Shown: one piece after another, positions 846 through 26,827 of the stretch
How positions within the stretch are numbered: position 1 is the stretch's first letter
Layout of the letters: every line of letters starts with the position of its first letter
Source of the DNA: Hydrotalea sp.
GTDB taxonomy: Bacteria; Pseudomonadota; Alphaproteobacteria; JASGCL01
Assembly: GCA_030054115.1 (NCBI GenBank)
Contig: JASGCL010000009.1
Location: 1-36,160, forward strand
DNA length: 36,160 nt
Direction: 5' to 3'
Made by a program: the position numbers and the translations under genes
The notes under the pieces: generated by a model
Seen by the model: the letters and a program-made list of their open reading frames with translations, nothing else
Databases searched by the model: none
Told to the model about the DNA's origin: nothing

Positions 846-2696
846 ATGCGGGCAAATAATTACACCATAACAAAGTTGGGGTTGGTCTTATTAAGCCTGC
901 TCCCCCTGTGGCCATTGCTGTGGCTGTTGTTCGCGCCGAACGCCGATGGTGGCCGCGCGAATTTTTTTGCCGACGTCGATTTCGCGGTCATCATCCCCTA
1001 TATCCTGACCAGCATCAACATGGTGGCGGTGATTGGCCTGTTGGCGGTGGCGATTGGCATATTGTTGGCCTGGTGGTTTGCATTTTTTACATTCCCGGGG
1101 AAAAAAATATTATCGTGGTTGGTGTTATTGCCCTTTGCCCTGCCGCCCTATATCTCGGCGATGGTTTATATCGAACAATTATCGCCGAGTGGTTGGTTGG
1201 GGCAACATCTGCAAGGGTTGTTGCATTTTTTGCACGCCACCAACCCGCGCGATTGGCGATTGGCGGCGGTGGTGCTGGCCATGTCTTTTTACCCTTATGT
1301 TTATTTGTTGGCGCGGGCGTTTTTGTCGTCATCGCACAGCCTTACCAGCCAGATTGAAATGGCGCGCGTCTTGGGTTATGCGCCGGCGCAATGTTTCTGG
1401 CGATTATTTTTGCCGATGATGATACCGCAAATGCTCGCCGGTTTTATTTTGGTCGGGTTAGAGGTCATGGCCGATTACGGCGCGATGAATTTTTTCGCCG
1501 TCAAAACATTATCGATGGGCATGTTCGACCTGTGGCTTAATTTGGGCCAGGTCGCCTACGCCCGTTATTTCTGTTTGGTGATTTTGTTGTGGGTGCTGTT
1601 GTTTTTGGCGATTGATTACGCGGTGCAGGGTTTTTATATCGATGGTTGGCGCGTCAAACGCAAATCAACCGCCGCCACCATGACGGCTGGGCACGGCGGC
1701 GCGCAACATCGCGCCATCACACCATCGCGCGGCAATATGATATTGATGTTGCTATTTATCTGGGGGTTGTTGTTATTTGCCTTTGGCTTGCCATTGTTGT
1801 CATTATTAAGTTGGTGGTTGCAACCATTGTTTCAGGGGACAAATGATTTCACGGCGAATGTTTTATCCAATATCTTGCCATGGTTGACGGCCATGGGCGA
1901 ATCGGTGCCAGCCATGTTTACCAGTTTCGGCTTCGCGCTGGTGGCCAGCGCGACCATGTTGTTGATTGTTTTGGCGATTGGTTTTGCCGAACGGTTGGCG
2001 CGCGCCAACCACCACGGCGGCAATATCGGCCTGATAAAATTGCCGCTGGTGGTTGGTTACGCCATGCCCGGGGTGGTGCTGGGCTTGAGCATATTGATTT
2101 TCAGCTTGAGCACTATCGATTTGCTGAGGCATTTTATTGGCAAGGGCGCGGCTGGCGTGGCCATCGACCACGGCACCTATAACATCATGCTGGGTGGGTT
2201 GTTGTTTTACGGCTATGTGGCAAAATTTTCGGCCAGCGCGTTCGGCGCGGTCAATGCCGGTTATCGCGCCATCGGCCCCAACCTGGACCAGGCGGCACGG
2301 GTATTGGGCCAACCGCCGATGGTTTTATTCGCCAATTATTTTTCGTATGGCATGGACGGTGTTGGCAATGACAAAAAAAACCATCGGTCAAAAAAATTTC
2401 CAAGAAAAATTCCAAGAAAAATTATCGGCGGGTTGTTGGGGGTGGTGCATTTGCCATTGTTGCGGCCGGCATTATTGTCGGCGTTTTTATTAACCTTTGT
2501 CGAGGTTATCAAGGAACTGCCCATCACGCTGGTCCTGCGCCCATTTGGTATTGAAACCCTGGCCTTAAGGCTTTTCACGCTGGTCAGCGACGAACGGATA
2601 AAAATGGCCGCCCTGCCCGCCCTGTTAATTATGTTGGTTAGCGGTTTATCGATTTGGCTAACCCGCGATTATTGGCTAAAAAGAAATGGCCTGTAG
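846..2696 (+). CDS. Fe(III)-type ABC transporter permease (FbpB-like)
   Basis: This 616-residue inner-membrane protein carries two fused permease domains, as in the FbpB/SfuB ferric-iron uptake family. The first coupling (EAA-type) loop begins MARVLGYAPAQ and is followed by EVMADYGAMNFF. The second begins near residue 481 (DQAARVLG), and the C-terminal part contains EVIKELPITLVLRPFG, which is characteristic of iron(III) permeases. About 35 extra lysine- and arginine-rich residues (roughly 497-531) split the second coupling loop just before HLPLLRP. The ATPase gene follows directly, implying an operon. No periplasmic binding-protein gene is in view, so the substrate (ferric iron is the best guess) is inferred from the family. 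No clear Shine-Dalgarno precedes the ATG. Confidence 0.88.
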   Translation: MRANNYTITKLGLVLLSLLPLWPLLWLLFAPNADGGRANFFADVDFAVIIPYILTSINMVAVIGLLAVAIGILLAWWFAFFTFPGKKILSWLVLLPFALPPYISAMVYIEQLSPSGWLGQHLQGLLHFLHATNPRDWRLAAVVLAMSFYPYVYLLARAFLSSSHSLTSQIEMARVLGYAPAQCFWRLFLPMMIPQMLAGFILVGLEVMADYGAMNFFAVKTLSMGMFDLWLNLGQVAYARYFCLVILLWVLLFLAIDYAVQGFYIDGWRVKRKSTAATMTAGHGGAQHRAITPSRGNMILMLLFIWGLLLFAFGLPLLSLLSWWLQPLFQGTNDFTANVLSNILPWLTAMGESVPAMFTSFGFALVASATMLLIVLAIGFAERLARANHHGGNIGLIKLPLVVGYAMPGVVLGLSILIFSLSTIDLLRHFIGKGAAGVAIDHGTYNIMLGGLLFYGYVAKFSASAFGAVNAGYRAIGPNLDQAARVLGQPPMVLFANYFSYGMDGVGNDKKNHRSKKFPRKIPRKIIGGLLGVVHLPLLRPALLSAFLLTFVEVIKELPITLVLRPFGIETLALRLFTLVSDERIKMAALPALLIMLVSGLSIWLTRDYWLKRNGL

Positions 2697-2740
2697 TTTT
2701 TAACACCCCCCCAAAAAAAATAAATTTTATAAATATAAAA

Positions 2741-3964
2741 ATGAGCAAAAAAGTTACGAAAAAATCAGCCGCATCATCACGCGCCATCAATGGGCCGGTG
2801 TTGGAATTTCGCAATGTCGATTTTGCCTATGGCGCGACGCACGGTCGGGCACCGCAAGAAAAAATATTGGACAGCTTATCCTTTGCCGTGCCGATGCGGG
2901 GGTTGATGTCGCTCCTCGGCCCGTCGGGCGCGGGCAAAACAACCATTTTGCGCTTGGCCCTGGGGTTGGAAAAACCCGACAATGGCGAGGTTTTTATCAA
3001 CCGCCAATTGGTGTCGAACAACCAATTTGTTGTGCCGCCCGAAAAACGGCGGGTGGGGTTGCTGTTCCAGGACATTGCCCTTTTCCCGCACCTTACGGTG
3101 TTTGACAATATTGCCTTTGGTTTAAACAACATTGGGTTAAACAACATTGGTTTGAACAATGGTAATGGTAATGGCGCGGCAAAAAATAGCAACCTTGCGC
3201 CGCTTGATAAAAAAAATATCGTCATGCGGTGGTTGGAACAAATTGGTTTGCCGGATTTTGGCAATCGCTACCCGCACCAATTGTCGGGCGGCGAACAACA
3301 ACGGGTTGCCTTGGCGCGCGCCCTGGCCCCGGGGAGTCGATTGATATTGATGGATGAGCCTTTTTCATCGCTCAACGAACGCACCCGCGATGACATGCGC
3401 AATTGGGTGCTGAATTTTTTGGCGGCGCGCGGCATTGCCGCCCTGATGGTTACCCATTCGGTCGAGGAAGCCATGTTCATGAGCGACAGCATCGCCGTGC
3501 TTTATAATAAAAAATTGCAACAACATGGCACGCCGGCCGATATTTATTATAACCCAAGTAATAAATTTGTCGCCACCATGTTCGGCGCGGTTAATCAATT
3601 TTATGCCGAGGTGCAACAGGGCCAGGTGACAACGCCGCTCGGCCAATTTACCGCCAACCACCAGGGCAAAAAATTTCACGACGGGCAAATGGTCGAGGTT
3701 ATCATCCGCGCCGATGCGGTTGATGTGCAACCAGAAAATAAAAACCTAACAAAAACCACAAACGAAAAAATTACCGGCACCATCACCGACGTGCGATTCC
3801 TTGGCCAACATTCATTGGTTACCTGGCGTATCGATGCAACCACCGCAACCAAAATTTACAGCCGCATCACCACCGACCAGGGGGGGGCAACCGCCCTCGC
3901 CAGCGGCCAGCGGGTGCAGGCCACGGTTGATAAAAAGGGCGTGTTTGTTTTCGCCAAACAATAA
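2741..3964 (+). CDS. ABC transporter ATP-binding protein (FbpC-like)
   Basis: This 407-residue ATPase energises the adjacent permease on its cytoplasmic face. Walker A is GPSGAGKTT near residue 60, the signature is LSGGEQQR near 180, Walker B is LILMDEP near 203, and the switch histidine is in MVTHSVEEA. The last 100 or so residues look like a TOBE-type regulatory domain, as in FbpC. The start chosen is ATG 2741, 44 bases after the permease stop. An in-frame ATG at 2654 would overlap the permease and add 29 atypical residues. An unusual Asn/Gly-rich insertion begins at residue 127 with three GLNN repeats encoded by 15-bp units (3119-3163), in the helical domain after the Q-loop. Confidence 0.9.
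   Translation: MSKKVTKKSAASSRAINGPVLEFRNVDFAYGATHGRAPQEKILDSLSFAVPMRGLMSLLGPSGAGKTTILRLALGLEKPDNGEVFINRQLVSNNQFVVPPEKRRVGLLFQDIALFPHLTVFDNIAFGLNNIGLNNIGLNNGNGNGAAKNSNLAPLDKKNIVMRWLEQIGLPDFGNRYPHQLSGGEQQRVALARALAPGSRLILMDEPFSSLNERTRDDMRNWVLNFLAARGIAALMVTHSVEEAMFMSDSIAVLYNKKLQQHGTPADIYYNPSNKFVATMFGAVNQFYAEVQQGQVTTPLGQFTANHQGKKFHDGQMVEVIIRADAVDVQPENKNLTKTTNEKITGTITDVRFLGQHSLVTWRIDATTATKIYSRITTDQGGATALASGQRVQATVDKKGVFVFAKQ
3119..3163 (+). repeat. 15-bp in-frame tandem repeat, three units
   Basis: Three 15-base units (3119-3133, 3134-3148, 3149-3163) encode GLNNI, GLNNI and GLNNG inside the ABC ATPase gene. A short GGTAAT repeat follows, giving GNGNG. Because the unit is a multiple of three, gain or loss of units keeps the frame. 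Confidence 0.85.
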
Positions 3965-21268: not shown

Positions 21269-22387
21269 TTATAACAACTGCCATTGCTGTAGCAGGTTTT
21301 GCAATTTTTTGACAGCCCCCGCCAGCTGGTTGTTAACATTGTCCGTCTGTGCGGTGGCGGCCAACAGGCCGCTCATGCTCCCGCGAAATAATTTTAACAC
21401 CCGTGGCAAATGCTGATGGTAATTGTTTTTGCCATCGCGTTTTTCCAAGCGAACAAAAATACCCAGCACCTTGGCATGGCGCGTCAACCCCAGAAAATAA
21501 AACCAACGTAGAAAATCATCGGCCAGGTTTTTATGAGTTGGGCATTTTGCTTGCCATGCGCCAATAAAATATTGCCATAATATTTTTTTTACGGCTGGCG
21601 TTATGTCGCGCCGCGCATCCTCCAGCAGGCTCATCACATCATACGTCGGGTGGCCGAGCAAGCCGTCTTGAAAATCAAGCCAAGCGATGGCGTCATCGAC
21701 CAGCAACAAATTATCGACATGAAAATCGCGATGGACAAAAACATCAAACGGCGGGGCGCAGGTTGTCGCCAGCTGATGATATATTTCTTGCAACAGCTGA
21801 ACAAATTGTTCGATGCTGGCATCGTCTGGCATCACCTGATTTTTTTCGGGAACATACCATTGCGGCAATAATATAGCCTCGCGCGTTAAGGCCGCCGCGT
21901 CGTAAGCCGGCAACAACCCATTATGTTTCGGCGGCGGCACGCCATAATGTTCATGCCACGCCAATTGGCTACGCACCAAGCCGGCTATAACCTTGGTGTA
22001 AAGTTCTTCCTCCTGCGCCTCATCGGCCGCCAGCAAACGGGTCAGGCTATCGGCACCCAAATCCTCCAGCAACAAAAATCCATTATCATGGTCGCGGGCG
22101 GTGATGGTTGCAATCTTCATGGTGCGAAGCGGCGTTAGCAAATCGGCGACTTTTTCAAAAATAATTGTCGGGTAAAGGTCGGGCGGCGAATCCATCACCA
22201 GCAAATTTTTACCCCGCCATTTTTTATCCACCAGGCGGAAATAACGGCGAAAGGACGCATCGGACGCCAAGGGAACAATTTTTTCATCGGCCATGCCCTG
22301 CGCCAATAAAAAATCGTGGCGCAATTTATCGCGCGCCGCAAAATCGACCGCTGGTTTTTTCATGTCGGGTTTGGTTTGTTGATTCAT
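21269..22387 (-). CDS. amgK: AmgK-like amino-sugar (MurNAc/GlcNAc) kinase
   Basis: This 372-residue protein has the APH (aminoglycoside phosphotransferase) kinase fold. It has an early SDASFRRYFRL, then LLVMDSPPDLYP, a hinge GFLLLEDLGADSL, the catalytic VHRDFHVDNLLL and the metal-binding AWLDFQDGLLGHPTYDVMSLLED. This combination marks the AmgK family, cytoplasmic kinases that phosphorylate recovered MurNAc and GlcNAc at the anomeric carbon in peptidoglycan recycling. The usual partner MurU (nucleotidyltransferase) is not present in this window. It starts six bases after the preceding kinase gene ends. Confidence 0.85.
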   Translation of the reverse strand: MNQQTKPDMKKPAVDFAARDKLRHDFLLAQGMADEKIVPLASDASFRRYFRLVDKKWRGKNLLVMDSPPDLYPTIIFEKVADLLTPLRTMKIATITARDHDNGFLLLEDLGADSLTRLLAADEAQEEELYTKVIAGLVRSQLAWHEHYGVPPPKHNGLLPAYDAAALTREAILLPQWYVPEKNQVMPDDASIEQFVQLLQEIYHQLATTCAPPFDVFVHRDFHVDNLLLVDDAIAWLDFQDGLLGHPTYDVMSLLEDARRDITPAVKKILWQYFIGAWQAKCPTHKNLADDFLRWFYFLGLTRHAKVLGIFVRLEKRDGKNNYHQHLPRVLKLFRGSMSGLLAATAQTDNVNNQLAGAVKKLQNLLQQWQLL

Positions 22388-22392
22388 TTTTT

Positions 22393-23520
22393 TTATCCTA
22401 ACAGCTGTTGCGCCTGTTTGAACAGTTCGGCGACGTCGGGTTTTTCCTGCGGCAGTTCGGGCAATTTATCAAGCCCATGTTGTTTGCGATGCCATTGCTT
22501 CGACAATATCAACCCCCAGCGAATCATCGCCAGGGCCTGAAACCAATGGTTTTGCGCCATGATGGCGGCGATAGTAATTTTTTTGTCGCCGGCTTGGGGG
22601 GGGGCCTTGCGGTGGAACAGGTAATGTTGCAAAAAAACCTCCAGCTTGCCAATGCCGCCGCAGGTCAATTGCGGTTGATGATAAAGCCAGCAAGGGGCCG
22701 ACAACCAACCGATATCCTCCGCCGCCAACCCCAACCCCGCCATTTCCCAATCCAACACCGCCACCAATTTCTGCCCCGCCGCGCCATCGCCGGTATTTGC
22801 TTGCAACAAAAAATTGCCGGTGCGAAAATCGCCGTGGCACGGCACCATGTCGAACCACAGGTTTTCTGGCATGCTCGCCCATAGTTTTTCAATCGCGCGG
22901 GTGGCGGCGCGGGTGGCCCCATCATCCATCGGCCTGGCGTCCTTAAATAATTTTTCTAGCTCGCTATTTTTTTGCGCAAGCCAAGCGGGCAAGGTTTCAT
23001 CGCAACAAAGGTCGGGGAAATTCTGCCGAAAATCATGTTTGCTGTCGTGGATGATGGCAAGCTGTTGCGCCAAGGATTCCGTCAAATCGTCGTCGGCATA
23101 ATTTTTTTGCGTCACCAATCGCCCGTCTGACACACCGCTCAACAGCGGTAACACCAACCATTGACTATCACCATGGAGCGCGCCCGGCGTCATGACGCCG
23201 TGGCGGTGAAAAAAATCATAAAATTTTCGCTGTTGCATGATGTTGCGGCTGATGGCAAATGGCTCGCGCGGAAAAATTTTTAACACATAGCTTGATTTTT
23301 TGCCGCGCAACAAAAAATGATGGTGCGACGCGCCGGCCTTGGTAATAATACTTAAGGGCTGGCAAGTAATAATCTCATCGGCCAAATGTTTCGCCAAGCT
23401 CGGCACCAAGCGCGCCCTGTCGATTAAGAATTCGCTTTCTGGGCCGCTACCCAGGTCTGTTGCTTGAACAGCGTCTTTACCGATGGCGCGATTCGGGGGA
23501 TTATTAAAACCTGTCGCCAT
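22393..23520 (-). CDS. APH-family phosphotransferase
   Basis: This 375-residue kinase-like protein has the APH fold. A nucleotide-binding N-lobe is followed by YVLKIFPREPF (likely the lysine-bearing strand), then the catalytic loop VPCHGDFRTGNFLL and the metal-binding VLDWEMAGLG with AAEDIGWLSAPCW. This catalytic pattern is closer to the acyl-CoA-dehydrogenase-linked and choline-kinase-like members than to AmgK. The substrate is unknown. Aminoglycoside resistance is not implied. It sits ten bases after the UPF0262/phosphatase gene and just before amgK, so two distinct APH kinases are co-transcribed. Confidence 0.8.
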   Translation of the reverse strand: MATGFNNPPNRAIGKDAVQATDLGSGPESEFLIDRARLVPSLAKHLADEIITCQPLSIITKAGASHHHFLLRGKKSSYVLKIFPREPFAISRNIMQQRKFYDFFHRHGVMTPGALHGDSQWLVLPLLSGVSDGRLVTQKNYADDDLTESLAQQLAIIHDSKHDFRQNFPDLCCDETLPAWLAQKNSELEKLFKDARPMDDGATRAATRAIEKLWASMPENLWFDMVPCHGDFRTGNFLLQANTGDGAAGQKLVAVLDWEMAGLGLAAEDIGWLSAPCWLYHQPQLTCGGIGKLEVFLQHYLFHRKAPPQAGDKKITIAAIMAQNHWFQALAMIRWGLILSKQWHRKQHGLDKLPELPQEKPDVAELFKQAQQLLG

Positions 23521-23530
23521 GTCGTTTTTT

Positions 23531-24580
23531 TTAAAGGTCCACGGTGGCGGTGGTTAATTTTTTTGTCAATTGGTCGCGCAGGGCGCGGTAGGCAACCAAT
23601 TTCTGTTCGCGTGACCCTTCGACCAATGTTGGGTCGATAATATCGTGCCAATAAATAATCTTGCTGGCGGGAATTTTTTGCTGTTGTAAAAAATGCAAGG
23701 CGTCGGACGACAGGGCAAAAATTTTATCATATTCTTGCAGGCTGGCGGCCGATAATAATTTTCCCGTGCCGGTTACCGATTGGATATTTTTTTCCTTCAG
23801 CACCGTTGGAATAAATGGGTCAAGGCTGATTTTATCGCTGGTCGCCAGCACGCCGGCCGATTGCCATTTTTCCAACCCCGATTTTTTATTCTGCCACAGG
23901 TGCCGCGCCAAGCTGAGGGCCATGGGCGAGCGCACCGAATTCATCGTGCAACAAAAAAGATATTGCGCCGGCGGTGGTTTGCCCACATTCGGTGGCGGCG
24001 CGGCACCGCGCCCACCAAGCAATGAAAAATCCGGCATCAGGGCGACATGCGGAATAAACAACAGCGACAGCAGGCTGAAAAACAAACGCGCCGTTTCAAT
24101 GTCGATAATAATTTTTCCCTTTAATCGCTCGATAAGCACCGCCGCGGCGTCGTTGTGAATGCCGCGCCGCGCCATGTCGATGGCCTCCATCTGGTGGCGC
24201 GATGGTTTTTGCGCCTGGTCCAAATGCGCCAAGACAATATCTTGGTAATCTTTAAAATGACGTTGCAGGGGGCGGAGCGATAATAAATAAAGATGTATCG
24301 GTTTATCGCGCAACGAAAAAAAATCTAGAATCATTTGGTTTTCATGCGCTGAGATTCGCAAACGATAGGGCGGTTTTTCAAACCCGACCAAACTTAATTT
24401 GCCATGTTGCATTAAATCGGCGGCGATGGTTTCCAATTCGCGTTTTAAGCCACGCGGGTGTTGCGCCACCAATTTTGCGTCTATGACCACCGACTTCAGC
24501 GATGGCGACGGCGATGGTGCGGCATCTTTCTTAATAGCGTGTTTTTTGCTGGGCGGTTTTTTTATTTTTTTAGTCAGCAC
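23531..24580 (-). CDS. UPF0262 / low-molecular-weight phosphatase fusion
   Basis: This 349-residue protein joins two families normally encoded by adjacent genes in alphaproteobacteria. Residues 28-177 are UPF0262, including SLRPLQRHFKDY, IDMARRGIHND and DIETARLFFSLL. After a proline/glycine-rich linker (about 180-205), residues 206-345 are a low-molecular-weight protein tyrosine phosphatase-type domain. It has the CX5R loop CTMNSVRS (Cys211, Arg217), a likely general-acid Asp316-Pro, and the alphaproteobacterial ending EGSREQKLVAYRALRDQL. Both catalytic elements look intact. The frame is continuous with no sign of a frameshift. It follows hisD, as the separate genes do elsewhere. The function of UPF0262 is unknown. 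Confidence 0.9.
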   Translation of the reverse strand: MLTKKIKKPPSKKHAIKKDAAPSPSPSLKSVVIDAKLVAQHPRGLKRELETIAADLMQHGKLSLVGFEKPPYRLRISAHENQMILDFFSLRDKPIHLYLLSLRPLQRHFKDYQDIVLAHLDQAQKPSRHQMEAIDMARRGIHNDAAAVLIERLKGKIIIDIETARLFFSLLSLLFIPHVALMPDFSLLGGRGAAPPPNVGKPPPAQYLFCCTMNSVRSPMALSLARHLWQNKKSGLEKWQSAGVLATSDKISLDPFIPTVLKEKNIQSVTGTGKLLSAASLQEYDKIFALSSDALHFLQQQKIPASKIIYWHDIIDPTLVEGSREQKLVAYRALRDQLTKKLTTATVDL

Positions 24581-24616
24581 GGGCTTATCCTTTTTTCTAT
24601 ATTGCTGATGGATTTT

Positions 24617-26050
24617 TTATTTTTTGACGCGGTTGGCAATCGATTGCCCATGGTGCGGCAATTTTTCTGCATTGGCAAGGTGGATAATATCGCCAGATAA
24701 TTTTTCAATCGCACGCGGGTTGCCGGTAATCATGCTGGTGCGTTTTAAAAAATCAAACAGCGACAGGCCAGACGAAAACCGCGCCGATTGAAATGTCGGC
24801 AGAACATGGCTTGGCCCGGCCAGGTAATCGCCAAATGCCTCGGGGCTGAAATCGCCCAAAAAAACCGCGCCGGCGTTGCGGATTTTTTTTGCCAATGCTT
24901 CGGGGTTATCAACCATCACCTCGACATGTTCGGCCGCCATGCAATCGGCCAGCGCGACCCCCGTGGTCGCAATATCATCCACCACCACCACCGCGCCGCA
25001 ATTTTGCCACGACGCCCTGGCAATTTTTTGCTTGGCCAATATATCCGGGTCGTTGCTTGGCGTGGTTAAAATGGTTGCGACCTGTGCCACAACTTCTTCC
25101 GCCAATGGCGCGTGGTCGGTAATAAGCACCGCCATCGCCTGCGGGTCATGTTCGGCCTGGCTGATTAAATCCAGGGCGATCCATGCCGCCTTGGTCGTCA
25201 TGTCCTTGGCGTTTGATAAGGATTTATCGGCCAGCACCAATACCTCCGACGGGCCGGCTATCATGTCGATGCCGACCTTGCCAAAAACTTGCCGCTTGGC
25301 CTCGGCGACAAATTCGTTGCCTGGGCCAACGATTTTATCAACCGGCATAATGCTCGGCGTGCCATGTGCCATGGCCGCCACCGCCCCCGCGCCGCCCAAA
25401 CATAAAACCGATGACACACCGGCAAGGTAAGCCGCCGCCAACACCAAGGGGTTGGCATGTTCTTCGACGGAAAATTTTTTACCTGGAGATATAGCTATAT
25501 TTTTGTCCAACCCCAGCGGGCAAACCATCGTGATATTTTTTACGCCGGCCACCCGCGCTGGTATGGCATTCATCAAAACCGACGATGGGTAGGCCGACAG
25601 CCCACCCGGCACGTAAATCCCCAATTTTTCAATCGCCGTCCAGCGCAGGCCTAGCTTAACCCCCAATTCGTCTTGCGACATAAAATCCTTATCAAGTTGG
25701 TAATGGTTAAAAACCGCGCGATGAAATTGTTCGATGCGTTCCATCGCCAGCCGCAACGCGGCTTGTGATTCTTCGGACAAAACATCCAGGTGTTTTTGTC
25801 GCGGCACGATAAGCAATTCGTCGATGCTGTTCACCGATGCCGGGATATGGTCAAATTTTTTACCATAGGCCAGCAACGCCGCATCGCCGCCATTTTTTAT
25901 TTGCGCAATAATATCGGTCACCGCGCGGGTTACATTATCGGCATCGGCCTGACGCCGCGCCAACAATGATTGGAACGCCGCCATTACATCCACGTCGGGC
26001 GTGGCATGGTCAATGGTGGTTGGGCGCGGGGTGGCGGGGTTGGACGACAT
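24617..26050 (-). CDS. hisD: Histidinol dehydrogenase HisD
   Basis: HisD performs the last two oxidations of histidine biosynthesis, histidinol to histidine, with NAD and zinc. The 477 residues exceed the usual 430 mainly through an N-terminal extension. Visible motifs are LGIYVPGGLSAYPSSVLM, the GPGNEFVAEAKRQVFG region and GIDMIAGPSEVLVLAD. Likely zinc ligands are Gln and His in ISQAEHDPQA, Asp or His near GDYLAGPSHVLPT, and His in SGDIIHLANAE. It follows hisG by 30 bases in the same transcript. Confidence 0.97.
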   Translation of the reverse strand: MSSNPATPRPTTIDHATPDVDVMAAFQSLLARRQADADNVTRAVTDIIAQIKNGGDAALLAYGKKFDHIPASVNSIDELLIVPRQKHLDVLSEESQAALRLAMERIEQFHRAVFNHYQLDKDFMSQDELGVKLGLRWTAIEKLGIYVPGGLSAYPSSVLMNAIPARVAGVKNITMVCPLGLDKNIAISPGKKFSVEEHANPLVLAAAYLAGVSSVLCLGGAGAVAAMAHGTPSIMPVDKIVGPGNEFVAEAKRQVFGKVGIDMIAGPSEVLVLADKSLSNAKDMTTKAAWIALDLISQAEHDPQAMAVLITDHAPLAEEVVAQVATILTTPSNDPDILAKQKIARASWQNCGAVVVVDDIATTGVALADCMAAEHVEVMVDNPEALAKKIRNAGAVFLGDFSPEAFGDYLAGPSHVLPTFQSARFSSGLSLFDFLKRTSMITGNPRAIEKLSGDIIHLANAEKLPHHGQSIANRVKK

Positions 26051-26080: not shown

Positions 26081-26827
26081 TTACAAAACACTTTTAAAGG
26101 CCGCCAGCAAATGGGCAAAGGCCTTGGGGTGCGTTTTGTAGGCAACGCGGTTGACCATCAACAAACTGGTGACATCCAAAATTTTATTTTCCTCGAGCAA
26201 ATGGTTATCCTTCAGGGTTTGGCCGGTTGCCACCAAGTCGACAATTTCATCGGCCAGGCCGAGCGTCGGCGCAAGTTCTAACGAGCCAGACAATGGCATG
26301 ACCTCTATCGCTTGGTTTTTGCCGTGGTAGTAGGCGCGCGCCAGGTTGGGGTATTTGCTGGCCACGATTTTTTTGCCATTGAAGTTTTTCACCGATTGCG
26401 CCGCCGACGCCAATCGCGCGGTGCTGAGGCGGCATTTGCCTATCCCCAAATCCAACGGCACATAGATGTTGTCGCGATGGTCGCGCAGGCCCTCTCCCGC
26501 GTCGCGTAATTTTTCTTCCCAAATATCGCGGCCCAAAATTCCCACCACCGCACTGCCGGTGGCAACGAACGAAAAAACGTCCCAATTTTTTACCTCGACC
26601 AATGTCAGGGCTGAAAAATCATCGGCCATCGCCGCCAACTCGCCGCTGAATGGCAGGGTGGTTACCAACCGCCGCCGGTCGTTGGCCAAAAAATCATCGG
26701 GCAAGGCAATGCCAATTTTTTTGAGCAACGGAACGGCCTCGGCCATGACCCGCCCCTTGGGCAGGGCAAAAACAAACGGGGATTTTATATTATCGTTGGT
26801 CACGGGATTGGGTATAGCGGCATCCAT
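26081..26827 (-). CDS. hisG: ATP phosphoribosyltransferase HisG, short form
   Basis: HisG starts histidine synthesis by joining ATP and PRPP. At 248 residues it lacks the C-terminal regulatory domain and so belongs to the short form, which depends on the HisS-like subunit HisZ. Motifs include FALPKGRVMAEAVPLL, the phosphate-binding ELAPTLGLADEIVDLVATG and KNWDVFSFVATGSAVVGI near the active site. No hisZ gene lies in this window. It is preceded by ndk 44 bases away, and a fair sigma70 promoter overlaps the end of ndk, so histidine genes may start there. Confidence 0.95.
   Translation of the reverse strand: MDAAIPNPVTNDNIKSPFVFALPKGRVMAEAVPLLKKIGIALPDDFLANDRRRLVTTLPFSGELAAMADDFSALTLVEVKNWDVFSFVATGSAVVGILGRDIWEEKLRDAGEGLRDHRDNIYVPLDLGIGKCRLSTARLASAAQSVKNFNGKKIVASKYPNLARAYYHGKNQAIEVMPLSGSLELAPTLGLADEIVDLVATGQTLKDNHLLEENKILDVTSLLMVNRVAYKTHPKAFAHLLAAFKSVL

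Follow-up and report, generated by a model that had tools for sequence, protein, structure and literature searches.

A UPF0262 domain fused to a low-molecular-weight phosphatase downstream of hisD in an alphaproteobacterium, with related fusions in two other lineages

The DNA stretch analysed, hereafter the window (36,160 nucleotides), carries a gene whose single product joins a UPF0262 domain to a low-molecular-weight (LMW) phosphatase. This protein most likely consists of a functional phosphatase and, tethered to it, a UPF0262 partner that has diverged. As for the fuller reading, in which it is a natural fusion of adjacent, co-directional genes from the alphaproteobacterial hisD-UPF0262-phosphatase cluster, with an active phosphatase and UPF0262 as its tethered partner, we put the chances at about even. 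The sequence-only reading had described UPF0262 and a CX5R phosphatase as one polypeptide with a Pro/Gly linker, giving no strand, and a single minus-strand frame with two Pfam domains was indeed found there. The features concerned are the following.

23531..24580, minus strand: fused gene UPF0262::LMW phosphatase, a single open frame of 349 aa with both Pfam domains above the curated cut-off
24588..24592, minus strand: Shine-Dalgarno-like AAGGA, 7 nt 5' of the GTG start of the fusion (sequence reading)
24059..24499, minus strand: UPF0262 domain, residues 28-174 (Pfam PF06793, E=5.3e-33; pLDDT mostly 85-98)
23963..24055, minus strand: interdomain linker, residues about 176-206, Pro/Gly/Ala-rich (pLDDT <50 at residues 179-203)
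23534..23962, minus strand: LMW phosphatase domain, residues 207-349 (Pfam PF01451, E=1.5e-10; Foldseek)
23930..23950, minus strand: P-loop C211-TMNSV-R217 (CX5R) with the predicted nucleophile Cys211 (C211, N214, R217 and S218 invariant in 62 aligned sequences)
23630..23635, minus strand: predicted general acid Asp316-Pro317 (conserved at 98% and 97%)
24617..26050, minus strand: hisD, directly upstream of the fusion and co-directional with it, gap of 36 nt (Pfam PF00815, E=1e-135)
26081..26827, minus strand: hisG, upstream of hisD (Pfam PF01634, E=7e-40)

The fused gene begins with GTG and ends with TAA, the stop being counted in its coordinates. Ahead of UPF0262, a 27-residue Lys/Pro/Ser-rich N-terminal tail (24500..24580, minus strand) is modelled with low confidence. 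Directly downstream of the fusion lie two tandem APH-fold (APH-family) kinases (21269..23520, minus strand), the second of which is AmgK-like (NCBIfam 9e-50, yet below the curated cut-off). Elsewhere in the window, an ABC transporter ATPase-like ORF (2654..3964, plus strand) contains an internal GLNNIGLNNIGLNN low-complexity repeat.

The linker was checked for a stop or frameshift in the window sequence, and none was found from 23963 to 24055. Its GC content by codon position is compatible with coding, but the stretch is short. Translation of a separate phosphatase from an internal start was considered and is not favoured: inspection of the sequence showed no Shine-Dalgarno-like site ahead of any candidate at residues 174-213. 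That a sequencing or assembly artefact joined two frames is therefore extremely unlikely, given also that about 30 linker codons are open in the coding frame and that five other genomes share the architecture, one of them (G198) on a single 1.86 Mb contig; in favour of an artefact, the window assembly (G000) consists of 91 contigs and is the only one from its order among the sampled genomes. The fusion in the window is almost certainly genuine.

With 62 aligned sequences, AlphaFold2 modelled the whole fusion as two confident domains (mean pLDDT 85.5, pTM 0.55), between which the linker is predicted to be a flexible, disordered tether. A conserved interface near Cys211 had also been proposed, to be sought by structure prediction; none was predicted, and with that pTM and a linker pLDDT below 50 a fixed domain interface at this place is unsupported.

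The usual arrangement of the two genes was surveyed in 385 genomes of the class Alphaproteobacteria, using a joint profile built from eight relatives and the window, which gave matches in 283 of them. Nearly all genomes with both genes have them as separate neighbours; frequently a single stop and a few codons separate the two, in one frame, or else the genes overlap. All 79 readable named loci are unfused, in a set chosen partly for in-frame neighbours. The Sinorhizobium locus L108, for instance, reads murA, DUF2948, hisD, UPF0262, phosphatase and then maf (genes named from their sequences). The claim that UPF0262 and a CX5R phosphatase adjoin downstream of hisD in many alphaproteobacteria was thus borne out, usually as separate neighbours.

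The same survey for fused forms of UPF0262, as had been suggested, brought to light five further genomes with the phosphatase fusion in two other lineages: three species of the genus g206 (G325, G245 and G385) and two genera of the family f84 (G083, 458 aa; G198, 472 aa). According to the taxonomy of the sampled genomes, the window, g206 and f84 belong to three different orders. The f84 fusions give weaker Pfam matches, still above threshold. Both f84 proteins (L190:1568-2944 and L191:2150-3568, plus strand) have large low-complexity linkers or inserts: G083 has about 90 low-complexity residues inserted into UPF0262, and the linker of G198 is TGEAN-rich and pentapeptide-like. Across the fusions, the linkers vary from about 13 to more than 100 residues and differ in composition, all being flexible.

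In g15, a sister genus belonging to the family of g206, the two genes are unfused and overlap at GCATGA (ATGA) in G014 and G146. To judge from the sequences, the g206 fusion looks like the product of a 1-base insertion at this ATGA overlap (GCGATG in G385), the former start Met being kept. Since fused g206 stands beside unfused g15, at least two fusion events are the simplest reading, while gene trees leave a single clade possible. In the joint gene tree, a constraint uniting all fused rows could not be rejected (p-AU 0.84), its likelihood exceeding that of the free quick tree; in the HisG tree, a single clade of the fused lineages was marginally rejected (p-AU 0.045 and 0.023), on very long branches.

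Concerning the other neighbours of UPF0262, a control on domains sharing one open frame was run across the fetched loci, which are not a random sample: UPF0262 and the phosphatase share a frame in 6 of 181 loci, from three lineages, HisD and UPF0262 do so in one genome (G054), and HisG and HisD in none of 60 loci. The HisD::UPF0262 frame of G054 (L208, G054:C1) is open from 2283 on the plus strand over 588 codons, in a 1.7 Mb single-contig genome where a profile search gave no match of the operon-phosphatase family. Another 17 genomes were examined for a HisD fusion in the long open frames surrounding UPF0262, with none found. In G099 (G099:C18), a 330-aa DUF2948::UPF0262 protein with both Pfam domains (L192:1352-2344, plus strand) directly follows murA, with neither hisG nor hisD in between; DUF2948 is absent from the window genome. 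Because UPF0262 is joined to HisD in G054 and to DUF2948 in G099, fusion follows adjacency: UPF0262 fuses with whichever operon neighbour adjoins it.

These cases feed the chief rival explanation, nearly as likely as the reading of UPF0262 as a tethered partner and given somewhat less than an even chance. It regards the fusion as a near-neutral side effect of closely packed genes, where loss of a stop or a 1-bp indel merges neighbours, the domains remain independent and no shared function is implied. Besides the HisD and DUF2948 fusions, it is favoured by the sufficiency of a single-base change, by the occurrence of several fused cases in genomes of 1.7-2.0 Mb, by flexible linkers of such unequal length and composition, and by the lack of a predicted interface between the domains. 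It fits less well with the phosphatase fusion being found in three lineages, against one each for HisD and DUF2948 (small raw counts), with hisG and hisD remaining unfused at all loci of the control, and with the phosphatase never occurring without UPF0262. Since UPF0262 fuses to other neighbours as well, the UPF0262::phosphatase fusion taken by itself is no more than moderate evidence for joint working.

That last pattern came from separate UPF0262 and phosphatase profiles run over the 385 genomes. UPF0262 was found in 247 of them and some phosphatase match in 265; as phosphatase scores were bimodal, the family was delimited by a cut of E<1e-27, chosen post hoc. A hand tally then gave 201 genomes with both, 46 with UPF0262 only, none with the family phosphatase only and 138 with neither, these genomes being mutually related and some of them incomplete. 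The family phosphatase is hence accompanied by UPF0262 in 201 of 201 genomes, and is missing from 46 of the 247 with UPF0262. This nesting may reflect dependence of the phosphatase on UPF0262, or also a phosphatase that is merely lost more easily. Since the phosphatase never occurs without UPF0262, the pattern supports a functional link independently of the fusion. The fusion had been presented as strong evidence that the two domains act together; this was overstated in view of the HisD and DUF2948 fusions, and the functional link itself draws support from co-occurrence.

The UPF0262 half scores 114.7 bits against PF06793 (gathering cut-off 25), with positions 4-150 of the 153 in the profile covered. 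Against NCBIfam PRK02853 it reaches 117.1 bits, under the equivalog cut-off of 162, so that its membership, as a diverged copy, holds at Pfam level only. It resembles the family (PF06793; PRK02853) in having the entire Pfam domain, the charged core motif and the position behind hisD, and differs in being fused at its C-terminus, in falling below the equivalog level and in lacking Cys116, the window having Val at a position that is Cys in all other aligned rows. The alignment shows E132, D135, R138, R139, H142, R165 and F168 to be kept. Modelled alone, the domain reached a pLDDT of 92.7 and a pTM of 0.88, and its predicted fold had no match at E<=0.001 among the PDB structures and viral models searched. 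No mention of UPF0262 or PF06793 by name was found in the literature searched.

Among positions that 85% or more of the relatives conserve, a hand count from the alignment finds the window protein altered at 25 of 53 in its UPF0262 half and at 9 of 39 in its phosphatase half. The changed UPF0262 positions, Cys116 among them, suggest relaxed or altered constraint. They would also suit a UPF0262 half that is decaying in the window lineage while attached N-terminally to a phosphatase still under selection, as would the window row being the longest branch of the joint tree. We consider such decay quite unlikely: the E132-D135-R138-R139-H142 motif and R165/F168 are kept, structure prediction folds the domain confidently, and HisG of the window genome also sits on a very long branch, which points to a fast-evolving lineage as a whole.

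As for the phosphatase half, PF01451 (LMWPc) matches residues 208-318 with 41.9 bits (gathering cut-off 23.2), and Foldseek retrieved LMW-PTP, ArsC, YwlE and Wzb structures with probability 1.00, E down to 2e-8 and target TM up to 0.83. C211, N214, R217, S218, W311 and D316-P317 are all retained, the catalytic residues being 98-100% conserved; the half is probably an active phosphatase. With other LMW phosphatases (PF01451), including the separate operon phosphatase beside UPF0262, it shares the CX5R(S) loop, the Asp-Pro acid and the fold; it differs in standing covalently behind UPF0262 and in the residues after Asp-Pro, where T/S and a GxR motif take the place of Tyr.

By profile, thioredoxin-linked ArsC (B. 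subtilis ArsC, PDB 1jl3; TIGR02691) ranks with the nearest relatives of solved structure, and it has a similar tail with Asp-Pro and Arg-Asp, but its redox cysteines after the P-loop are missing from the window protein. The latter has no Cys at all after C211, and its relatives have no aligned conserved Cys pair there. An arsenate reductase identity was rejected on this missing pair and on a TIGR02691 score of 40.4 bits, far below the cut-off of 174.3.

A functional comparison is offered by S. meliloti SMc02309, which, from the locus numbering of that species, we take to be the phosphatase gene of the hisD-UPF0262 operon. Unlike the window protein, its product is a stand-alone, unfused enzyme. 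In PMC7020829, citing Medeot 2016, this rhizobial LMW-PTP is described as cleaving pNPP and dephosphorylating ExoN on Tyr. By analogy with that account, phosphotyrosine is suggested as the substrate of the window phosphatase.

A mechanism can be proposed along these lines. The phosphatase half would be a cysteine phosphatase of the LMW-PTP/ArsC fold, forming a phospho-intermediate on Cys211 with Asp316 as the acid, and would act on protein phosphotyrosine, not on arsenate. UPF0262 would be its stable partner, an adaptor or stabiliser, and the fusion would tie the two together 1:1 through the flexible linker, not through a rigid interface. Whether UPF0262 does act as the partner of the phosphatase appears to us evenly balanced.

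The HisD and DUF2948 fusions caution that no single fusion proves interaction. Repeated fusion to one phosphatase, together with strict nesting, provides a concrete and cheaply testable hypothesis for the widespread UPF0262. Tentatively, with slightly less confidence than we give to the partnership itself, UPF0262 may be a dedicated partner (adaptor, stabiliser or inhibitor) of an alphaproteobacterial phosphatase, with a fold absent from solved structures, and the two would form a conserved signalling module inside the hisD cluster, exposed by repeated fusions.
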